From Deltaproteobacteria bacterium (lineage in GTDB: Bacteria > Myxococcota_A > Polyangia > Polyangiales > JADJMO01): DNA of 41,516 nucleotides. A program made the position numbers and the translations under genes. How positions within the stretch are numbered: the first letter of the stretch is position 1; every line of letters starts with the position of its first letter. Shown one piece after another: positions 9,495 through 12,341 of the stretch. The notes beneath the pieces were generated by a model. The model saw only the letters and a list, made by a program, of their open reading frames with translations, was not told the origin of the DNA and ran no database searches. Where the stretch lies: NCBI GenBank assembly GCA_022843175.1, contig JALHOE010000064.1, positions 1 to 41,516 of the forward strand, read 5' to 3'.

Positions 9495-9719
9495 ATGAGT
9501 AAGCGTTGCGGCCCCCACGTCGAGCTCTCCACGAACGACGCTGCGCGGGTCACGCGCTGCACGTGCGGGACGATCCACGTCCACCTCAACGCCCAGGGCC
9601 TCACCTTCCGCCTCGCGCCCGACCAGCTCCGGCACGTCGCCAACGCCGTCTCCGCCGCGCAACGGTTGATCGATCTCACAGATCAGGCCGGCGCCGCCCC
9701 GAGCGAAACGGTCAACTGA
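9495..9719 (+). CDS. small CxCG/His protein of unknown function
   Basis: This 74-aa protein begins MSKRCGPHVELS. Its core reads RCTCGTIHVHLNAQGLTFRL, a C-x-C-G-x2-H-x-H cluster followed by a short beta hairpin and then an amphipathic helix (LRHVANAVSAAQRLI). The cysteine/histidine cluster suggests a metal site, but I do not recognise the family. The ATG at 9495 is preferred over an in-frame GTG upstream because it follows TAGCAT by 10 nt and avoids crossing the ROK promoter. It precedes the sigma factor gene by 63 nt containing direct repeats and a palindrome. Confidence 0.7.
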   Translation: MSKRCGPHVELSTNDAARVTRCTCGTIHVHLNAQGLTFRLAPDQLRHVANAVSAAQRLIDLTDQAGAAPSETVN

Positions 9720-9749
9720 CGGCTCGTCCCCGGGGGACGACGGCTCGTC
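9718..9749 (+). promoter_or_regulatory. 11-bp direct repeat, 21-bp period, upstream of the sigma/LytTR operon
   Basis: GACGGCTCGTC occurs at 9718-9728 and again, identically, at 9739-9749. The centre-to-centre distance is 21 bp, two helical turns. LytTR-type regulators bind paired direct repeats about 21-22 bp apart, and a LytTR regulator is encoded in this operon. An autoregulatory site is therefore plausible, although the bases do not match the published GTT-centred consensus. Confidence 0.45.
9724..9740. promoter_or_regulatory. 17-bp perfect palindrome
   Basis: TCGTCCCCGGGGGACGA has 8-bp arms around one G. It lies 4 nt after the stop of the 74-aa gene and joins the two copies of the direct repeat. 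It could be an operator half-site arrangement or an RNA hairpin, but no T-run follows. Confidence 0.4.
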
Positions 9750-9782
9750 GGATCCGCCCTACACGACGGCGCTGCCGGCCCC

Positions 9783-10376
9783 ATGGTGCCCGGCATGCTC
9801 GTCTCGCTTCCGATTCGTCCCGACGCGGCCGCCCGTCTGATCCACGCCGAGATCGGGAATCCACGGACCCGCGCCCGTCTGGTCGCCTCGGCCGTCCGGG
9901 TCCTCGGCAACGAGGCGGACGCCGAGGACTGCGTGCAGGAGGCCCTGATCCTCGCCGCGAAGAACGCCGATCGGTTCGAGGGCCGTTCGAGCCCCACCAG
10001 CTGGCTGTTCCGGGTCGTGCTCAACGCCTGTCGCATGCAGCGACGGGCCGCGCGTCGTGAGCGGCGCGGGGGCGGCGCGGCGCACGTCTCGATCCACGAT
10101 CTGGTCGGGCACCACCCCGCCGCCGATCGCACGTTCGATCCCGAGGAGGCCATCGCGGCCAACGAGCTCGCGGGGGTCGTCGCCGACGAGCTCGAGCGGG
10201 TGCCGGACAAGGACGCGGCCCTCTTCATCCGTTACATGGGCGAGGATCTCCCCCTCGAGACCCTCGCTCAGCAGTCCCAGCTCACGCGCCAGGCGGTGAA
10301 ATCCAGGCTCTTCCGCGTGCGGCGGCGCCTGGCGGAGCGCCTGGTCGAGGAGGCAGTGTCGGTCGCAACCGCGTAA
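9783..10376 (+). CDS. ECF-type sigma-70 family RNA polymerase sigma factor
   Basis: This 197-aa protein carries sigma region 2 (about 33-95: DAEDCVQEALILAAKN then SPTSWLFRVVLNACR) and region 4 (about 138-190: DKDAALFIRYM, then a helix-turn-helix ending RQAVKSRLFRVRRRLAE). Regions 1 and 3 are absent, as in ECF factors. It would direct RNA polymerase to a specific promoter set. No anti-sigma gene adjoins it; a LytS kinase starts 3 nt after its stop, then a LytTR regulator. ATG 9783 is chosen; ATG 9795 is also possible. The direct repeats and palindrome upstream may control it. Confidence 0.9.
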   Translation: MVPGMLVSLPIRPDAAARLIHAEIGNPRTRARLVASAVRVLGNEADAEDCVQEALILAAKNADRFEGRSSPTSWLFRVVLNACRMQRRAARRERRGGGAAHVSIHDLVGHHPAADRTFDPEEAIAANELAGVVADELERVPDKDAALFIRYMGEDLPLETLAQQSQLTRQAVKSRLFRVRRRLAERLVEEAVSVATA

Positions 10377-10379
10377 GCT

Positions 10380-11576
10380 GTGGGGGTGGACGTGAACTCG
10401 CGCGAGAGAGAAGAAGACGAGTGCGTGGAGCACGTGAAGGCACGTCTCGAGCTCTATGGGTTCGGGAAGGTGCCGGGGCTCGACCGCGAGGAGATGCGCC
10501 GCCGCCACCGGCTCGCGCTCGGCGTACTGATCGTCATCGTCGCCGCGATGATGCTCGCGCAGCTCGGCAACGGTCAGCCGATCCGCGCGGTCATCCTGCG
10601 CTGCGCCTTCATCACGATCGAGCTGCCGATCCTCTTCGCCCTCGTGGCGCGCGCCTACGACTACACCCTGCTCCGCCGCCTCGCGCCGCTGCCGTCGCTC
10701 CTGATCAGCGCGGCCACCAGCGTCGCCACCGCGGTCGTCCTCGTCTCGCTCACCTGGGGCCTCTCGCGCGTCTTTCCGGCGCTCGCCATCGTGTTCCCCA
10801 CCGGCGACCACTCCTACGTCGCCGCGCTCAGCGGCGGCGTGATGCTCGGCCTCACCCACCTCGGCGCGTTCGCCCTCGCGTTCGTCTACCCGTTCGCCGC
10901 GCAGGACGCGCGCCTGCGCGCGCTCGAGGCCGAGAAGCTCCGCACGGCCGCCGAGCTCGCGCGGCTCCGCGGTCACCTCGAGCCGCACTTCCTCCTCAAC
11001 ACCCTCAACGCGATCGCCGGGCTCGTCACCGAGGACCCGCGTGAGGCGCGGCGTCTGCTCGCCGCGCTCGGAGATCTCCTGCGCGACGCGCTCCGCGACG
11101 GCGACGAGATGCACACGCTCGAGCAAGAAGAGGCGTGGCTGCGTCGCTACGCAGAGATCCTCGAGGCGCGCCACAAGGGCTCGCTCGCGTTCAAGTGGGA
11201 GATCGCCCCGGAGCTCCGCTCGATCCGCGTGCCGCGTTTGCTCCTGCAGCCGCTCGTCGAGAACGCGGTCAAGCACGGCGCCCTTCGGCGGCGCGGCGGC
11301 GGCGTGGTCACGGTGCGCGCGTCGCGGCCGTCGATCGACGCGCCCGTGATCGAGTGCGCCGTCGAGGACGACGGCCCCGGCTTCACCGAGGGGCCCATTC
11401 GTCAGGGCGCGATCGGCCTCTCCGTCACCAAGCGCCGGCTCGAGCTCAAGTTCGAGCACGCCGCGTTCCGCATCGAGTCGTCCACCGAGGGCACCCGCGC
11501 GATCGTCGCCTTCGAGGTGCCGCCCAAGAGCGAGCCGGTCGCGCCCGCGGCGACGACCCATCGCGCCCCTGCGTAA
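10380..11576 (+). CDS. LytS-type sensor histidine kinase
   Basis: About 398 aa. Four hydrophobic helices lie at about 46-190, followed by a coiled region and the His_kinase domain of the LytS/YehU class, with phospho-acceptor His203 in HLEPHFLLNTLN. The ATP-binding domain has the N box QPLVENAVKHG, G1 box EDDGPGF and a G2-like GAIGLSVTKRRLEL. No periplasmic sensor domain is large enough to name, so the membrane part itself may sense. GTG 10380 is used. GTG 10386, two codons on, lies 6 nt after TAAGCT and could be the true start. It probably phosphorylates the LytTR regulator encoded 6 nt downstream. Confidence 0.9.
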   Translation: MGVDVNSREREEDECVEHVKARLELYGFGKVPGLDREEMRRRHRLALGVLIVIVAAMMLAQLGNGQPIRAVILRCAFITIELPILFALVARAYDYTLLRRLAPLPSLLISAATSVATAVVLVSLTWGLSRVFPALAIVFPTGDHSYVAALSGGVMLGLTHLGAFALAFVYPFAAQDARLRALEAEKLRTAAELARLRGHLEPHFLLNTLNAIAGLVTEDPREARRLLAALGDLLRDALRDGDEMHTLEQEEAWLRRYAEILEARHKGSLAFKWEIAPELRSIRVPRLLLQPLVENAVKHGALRRRGGGVVTVRASRPSIDAPVIECAVEDDGPGFTEGPIRQGAIGLSVTKRRLELKFEHAAFRIESSTEGTRAIVAFEVPPKSEPVAPAATTHRAPA

Positions 11577-11582
11577 GCTCCC

Positions 11583-12341
11583 ATGCCCGACGAAGCTCCC
11601 CTCCGAGTCCTCGTGGTCGAGGACGAGTGGCCTGCGCGCAACTACCTCGTCGAGCTGCTGCACGCATCAAAGCTCGCCGAGGTCGTCGGCGCGGTGGCCG
11701 ATGCCGAGTCGGCGCTCGGCGTGCTCGCCCCCGACGGTCCGGCGATCGACGTGGTGTTCGCCGACGTGCACCTGGTCGGGAGCGAGCGCGACGACGCCGG
11801 CCTCGAGCTCGTGCGCAGCTTCGCCAAGCGCCCCAACGCGCCGCTGTTCGTGCTCGCCACCGCGTTCAAGGAGCACGCGATCGAAGCGTTCAGTCTCGGC
11901 GTGGTCGACTATCTGCTCAAGCCGTTCACCGACGACCGCGTCGAGCAGTGCCTGCGGCGCCTCCTCGCGCGGCGTCCGAACCGCCCCCTCGGCGCGCCGA
12001 GCAAGATCGTCGCGCGCAAGAAGAAGGGTTTGGTGTTCCTCCGCCCCGACGAGGTGTGGGCGTTCGAGGCCGCCGACCGCCTCACGTTCGTCCACACCAA
12101 GCGCGGCAGGTTCGATCTCGATCTGTCGCTGTCCGCGATCGAAGCGGCGTTCGGGAGCGGGCTGCTCCGGGCGCACCGCAACTGGCTGGTCAACCCCGAG
12201 CACGTCCGCGAGCTGCAGCGCGACAGCGGCGACGAGCTCGTCGTCGGCGACGACGACGGCCTGCGGGTCCCGGTCGCCCGCGAGCGCGCCCAAGCCGTCC
12301 GCGACGCCCTCCTCGCCGACGCCACCGGCCTCCGCCGCTGA
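11583..12341 (+). CDS. LytTR-family response regulator
   Basis: This 252-aa protein has an N-terminal receiver (about 7-125) with the acidic pocket Glu13/Asp14, phospho-acceptor Asp61 in VFADVHL and the conserved lysine in LLKPF. A LytTR DNA-binding domain follows (about 145-250: FLRPDEVWAFEAADRLTFVHTKRG ... LLRAHRNWLVNPEHVREL). Such regulators bind paired direct repeats as dimers. The gene follows its kinase by 6 nt, so the two form a co-transcribed pair with the ECF sigma gene. A likely target is the 11-bp direct repeat at 9718-9749. Confidence 0.93.
   Translation: MPDEAPLRVLVVEDEWPARNYLVELLHASKLAEVVGAVADAESALGVLAPDGPAIDVVFADVHLVGSERDDAGLELVRSFAKRPNAPLFVLATAFKEHAIEAFSLGVVDYLLKPFTDDRVEQCLRRLLARRPNRPLGAPSKIVARKKKGLVFLRPDEVWAFEAADRLTFVHTKRGRFDLDLSLSAIEAAFGSGLLRAHRNWLVNPEHVRELQRDSGDELVVGDDDGLRVPVARERAQAVRDALLADATGLRR

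Follow-up and report, generated by a model that had tools for sequence, protein, structure and literature searches.

A conserved 21-bp-spaced direct repeat as the predicted LytTR operator of a myxobacterial sigma factor-kinase-regulator operon

A direct repeat upstream of an operon encoding an ECF-type sigma factor, a LytS-type kinase and a LytTR response regulator is, in our judgment, very probably the operator of the operon's own regulator, which would use it to activate transcription of all three genes. The repeats are assigned to this regulator because related kinase-regulator pairs across myxobacteria have them too, with unchanged spacing, next to very different target genes. In the window, i.e., the whole analyzed stretch of 41,516 nucleotides, GACGGCTCGTC is present at 9718-9728 and again at 9739-9749. 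Both copies are perfect and the period is exactly 21 bp, which confirms the repeat described in an earlier note on this DNA. Copy 1 overlaps the TGA stop codon (9717-9719) of a 74-aa open reading frame by its first two bases; otherwise the repeats are intergenic, with 33 bp between their end and the first ATG (9783) of the sigma factor gene. The features of the region are as follows.

9495..9719, plus strand: 74-aa open reading frame directly upstream of the operator, no known family
9718..9728, plus strand: predicted operator copy 1, GACGGCTCGTC, with the core CGGCTCGTC at 9720-9728
9724..9740, no strand: 17-bp palindrome TCGTCCCCGGGGGACGA bridging the copies, present and incidental
9739..9753, plus strand: predicted operator copy 2, promoter-proximal, GACGGCTCGTC followed by GGAT, a conserved 3' extension
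9759..9764, plus strand: predicted -35 element (CTACAC), degenerate, placed by family alignment and published LytTR promoter geometry
9782..9787, plus strand: predicted -10 element (CATGGT), at +42 from the start of the last copy, a weak match in the window
9783..10376, plus strand: ECF-type sigma factor (Sigma70_r2, TIGR02937)
10380..11576, plus strand: sensor histidine kinase of the LytS type (PF06580 and HATPase_c)
11583..12341, plus strand: LytTR response regulator (Response_reg and LytTR), inferred binder of the repeats

Domain searches returned the sigma/LytS/LytTR content that had been proposed for this operon. It consists of the sigma factor, kinase and regulator genes without an anti-sigma gene, and is followed by a GGDEF gene in convergent orientation. 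The kinase has N-terminal hydrophobic helices at about 42-174, and His203 is its inferred phospho-accepting residue. In the regulator, the receiver phosphoacceptor set D61, T93 and K113 is conserved. A PF06580 kinase adjoins a receiver and LytTR regulator, as expected for a LytTR two-component system. In a PDB search, the regulator matched receiver domains and, weakly, a single entry in the LytTR region; its best NCBIfam match, BtsR, was sub-threshold. The 74-aa open reading frame shares 64% identity with its counterpart in the congener G003 and is not needed for the operator.

On its own statistics, the repeat is not beyond chance. The exact spaced pattern, one pre-chosen word, had 0 occurrences in 100 shuffles. 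Perfect 11-mer pairs of any kind, 11-30 bp apart, occur at about five places in the GC-rich window, and order-3 Markov sequences gave a mean of 3.1 matches by the same measure, with a maximum of 19. The significance of the repeat therefore comes from its conservation across loci and not from sequence statistics. Two other perfect 11-mer pairs in the window have 21-bp spacing, namely 7847/7868, which lies within a long open reading frame, and 28841/28862.

Close homologues of the sigma factor were found in only four of the 317 genomes of the class: the window's own genome (G000), G003, G141 and G004. G003, from the same genus, shares the gene order, and its sequence at this position is GACGGTTCGTCCCCCGGATCCCGCGGCTCGTCGGA; copy 1 is GACGGTTCGTC, both copies and the period of 21 are kept, and the centre is changed. 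The whole intergenic stretch is similar between these two genomes, so that this pairwise conservation is weak evidence alone. G141, which belongs to another family, carries three copies before the sigma gene of its sigma-kinase-regulator operon (locus L132, 4219/4240/4261), with a leave-one-out score of 23.9 vs 12.8 for the best null. An array was also sought near the two sigma homologues in G004, and none was found there. Operator-like repeats upstream of the sigma gene are thus present in G000, G003 and G141, where the linked two-component system may control that gene. The match to the regulator in G003 (G003:C198, about 2233-2358) is split into two pieces that overlap (residues 4-45 and 57-252), suggestive of a frameshift or an assembly error.

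Orthologues of the kinase were matched in 55 of the 317 genomes at E 1e-40. At the examined kinase loci, the regulator gene usually comes next after the kinase and the sigma gene is mostly absent. A scan of 61 loci that have orthologues of the kinase-regulator pair, with a matrix built from four copies only (window and G003) over periods of 9-45 gave 43 pairs in 28 loci at period 21 and a second peak at period 42 (19 pairs in 17 loci). Each other period gave 0-7 pairs, and the reversed-matrix control was flat. With leave-one-genus-out profiles, 46 of 62 loci and 22 of 28 genera scored above the best of 62 nulls; the DNA examined at the remaining 16 orthologous loci held no site scoring above the best null. 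Genomes that had not been used for training also carry arrays: that of Myxococcus dinghuensis scores 34.1 vs 5.7 for its own null, and two Corallococcus genomes and one Myxococcaceae MAG have arrays scoring 17.5-21.1 with their own nulls at 5 or below. At other newly added loci, matches to the array were weaker or ambiguous (L207, L214, L218, L219, L225 and L245) or absent (L221, L240 and L246-L248). The alignment of orthologous upstream regions that the earlier note had suggested as a check thus finds both the copies and the 21-bp period kept in G003, in G141, and next to most kinase-regulator orthologues in Polyangia and in some Myxococcia.

A class-wide search allowing one mismatch was too noisy, with results mostly at or below the reversed control, and the exact extended motif was used instead. 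This motif was found eight times in the 317 genomes, in seven cases within 800 bp of a kinase match (G000, G003, G110, G111, G113, G296 and G237:C643). The eighth, L186 (G237:C366:3998-4030), is a second site in G237 and apparently lies upstream of another sensor-kinase gene, as judged by reading the sequence. Judging by this second site, a regulon may in some cases include several targets.

The own genome, scanned by pattern rather than by matrix, holds a single perfect site for the paired motif, and the next-best matches, at three mismatches, are below the reversed-pattern control. With a looser pattern of one and a half copies, the window is the only perfect match, one more place has one mismatch, and 138 matches fall within three mismatches vs 89 in the control. 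A genome-wide repeat family is ruled out by the one perfect paired site and by looser patterns near control levels.

The consensus of the last copy, taken from 31 arrays, is ACGGYTCGTCGGAT, with one or two more copies upstream in 21-bp steps. The usual array thus has two or three copies and a conserved GGAT after the last one. Among 28 distinct promoters, a -10-like YANNNT lies at +41 to +43 from the start of the last copy in 16, and at every other position in 0-2. This geometry would leave about 10 bp between the last 9-bp core and a degenerate -35 element downstream of it, with the two copies nearest the promoter spanning roughly -75 to -42. For the window, the predicted -35, a poor match, begins 10 bp after the 9-bp core of copy 2, ACGGCTCGT, and the predicted -10 implies a transcription start near 9794.

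LytTR operators have been defined as a pair of direct repeats, each about 9 bp long, with 10-13 bp between them (PMC11347149), and autoregulatory LytTR operons show 9-bp repeats with a 12-bp gap and a strong bias for a position 10 bp before the -35 element (PMC6193735). The pair in the window, with a 9-bp core, a 12-bp gap and a period of 21, has the repeat size and gap of such an operator, and its period is fixed across orthologous loci. The LytTR Regulatory Systems (LRS) of Streptococcus mutans (HdrRM and BrsRM) and others share the 9-bp repeats and the 12-bp gap, their distance of about 10 bp to the -35 element is the one predicted for the window, and systems of this type positively autoregulate their operon (PMC6193735). 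An LRS, however, pairs a LytTR protein with a membrane inhibitor, whereas the window encodes a histidine kinase and a receiver-domain regulator and hence falls outside the LRS definition.

In AlgZ/AlgR of Pseudomonas aeruginosa, a kinase is likewise linked to a LytTR response regulator; we take AlgZ to be a PF06580-type kinase. The AlgR binding core is CCGTTCGTC (PMC4064291). The family core CGGYTCGTC agrees with it at eight of nine positions and the copies in the window at seven of nine, and the exact AlgR core is found in copies at the homologous locus L116. The earlier description of the motif as unlike the published consensus was hence only partly right. AlgR sites at algD are single cores far apart, one of them reversed, in contrast to the tandem 21-bp array of the window's family. 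This likeness, which concerns the core motif alone, suggests that bacteria other than Pseudomonas use an AlgR-like core, here arranged in tandem. In the open-licence literature searched, no binding site was described for this myxobacterial two-component family. A predicted operator defined by sequence would make targets of this widespread family predictable from sequence.

The most economical circuit we infer leads from the kinase via the regulator and the operator to the sigma-kinase-regulator operon. The membrane kinase would phosphorylate the regulator at D61, and the regulator would then occupy both copies, each of them binding a single LytTR domain, with the two domains on one face of the helix and two turns apart. 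Bound just upstream of the weak -35 element, it would recruit RNA polymerase and activate transcription of sigma factor, kinase and regulator, creating positive feedback. Since the operator is the only clear site in the genome, the ECF sigma factor would be the main output and would spread the signal to its own promoters. In Streptomyces coelicolor, the SigE-CseABC genes form one operon, and CseB is an OmpR-type regulator. The proposed circuit would work like SigE under CseBC, with a LytTR regulator replacing the OmpR-type one; SigE-CseABC (ECF39) is an example of an ECF sigma factor under two-component transcriptional control (PMC8999054). The predicted element is of a known kind, a LytTR operator, and the unusual part would be its output, a sigma factor.

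Relatives mostly have the array in front of a neighbouring gene, often for efflux or the envelope, and not in front of the regulator's own operon. With target gene starts taken approximately from an open reading frame heuristic, Pfam searches on the genes faced by arrays returned OEP (outer-membrane efflux proteins), HlyD (fusion proteins), Cu2_monoox (a copper-monooxygenase-like protein) and cytochrome/CCP_MauG, and further methyltransferases, Lactamase_B (a metallo-hydrolase) and inositol-phosphate synthase. Other arrays face a gene for a TonB-type receptor, as recognized by reading the sequence, or the kinase gene itself. The proposal of an autoregulatory site is thus supported in the window, with conservation in orthologous operons, but autoregulation is not the general use of the family, as its arrays mostly face neighbour genes. 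One regulator-operator module stands before very different outputs, a sigma factor included. Whether the kinase-LytTR module carries a standard operator of two or three copies at 21-bp spacing while lineages swap the gene behind it is, in our estimate, evenly balanced. If so, the swapped outputs would be efflux parts, receptors, oxidases and methyltransferases. The window's lineage would have an ECF sigma factor in this place, converting a switch with one target into a cascade.

Among the alternatives, negative autoregulation, in which the regulator binds the repeats and represses the operon, fares best, and we consider it unlikely. Sequence by itself does not tell activation from repression, and the LytTR protein CoxC, whose three direct repeats overlap the -35 element, is a repressor (PMC11347149). 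CoxC/RcoM operators resemble the window's family in having three evenly spaced direct repeats but differ in the half-site, TTNNNGCN (PMC11347149). In addition, CoxC represses without a kinase-receiver pair, whereas the regulator in the window has both a kinase partner and a receiver. In the family alignment, about 10 bp separate the end of the last core from the predicted -35 element, and the -10 element lies at a fixed distance, a layout found in activating LytTR sites (PMC6193735) and distinct from the -35-overlapping repeats of CoxC. Promoter geometry thus favours activation by the regulator over repression.

Considerably less probable is an operator of a different, unlinked transcription factor regulating these operons. 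At three Polyangium-type loci (L093, L096 and L097), an array of three copies comes directly after the kinase gene, followed by a gene of outer-membrane type, and no adjacent LytTR gene was detected. Binder and site are therefore not always neighbours, and a regulator encoded elsewhere may serve these three arrays. Against an unlinked factor, the repeats accompany the kinase-regulator pair in lineages whose other neighbouring genes differ, and their spacing is typical of LytTR sites. An autoregulatory ECF sigma promoter, consisting of GAAAC (9705-9709), 15 bp and CGTC (9725-9728), would suit the sigma factor gene downstream, and elements spaced in this way resemble ECF promoters. We hold this to be very improbable, since GAAAC is not kept in G003 and the repeats also occur beside kinase-regulator pairs without a nearby sigma homologue. 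A chance or neutral repeat of GC-rich DNA has even less to commend it: similar perfect 11-mer pairs do arise elsewhere in the window and in Markov sequences, but the period-21 peak and the linkage to kinase-regulator pairs across genera and outside the class reject it. The weakest candidate, with a negligible probability, is an RNA hairpin or attenuator formed from the palindrome, whose folding energy is ordinary vs shuffles (z 0.29 and 1.19) and for which an Rfam search gave no match on the repeat. The palindrome said to join the copies is indeed present, perfect except for its central base, but it is lost in G003 and lies outside the conserved element; as a functional element it was rejected.

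Finally, the predicted -10 element overlaps the first ATG of the sigma gene, and the sigma factor may therefore start at the ATG at 9795 instead of 9783, a position that aligns with the start in G003. A start at 9795 would leave the sigma mRNA almost or entirely leaderless. In several relatives, too, an ATG lies at about +54 to +57 relative to the beginning of the last copy. At L239, from a Labilithrix MAG, ACGGCTCGTCGC and ACGGTTCGTCGGA lie about 20 bp apart around 2853-2894, a possible variant of the repeat spacing.
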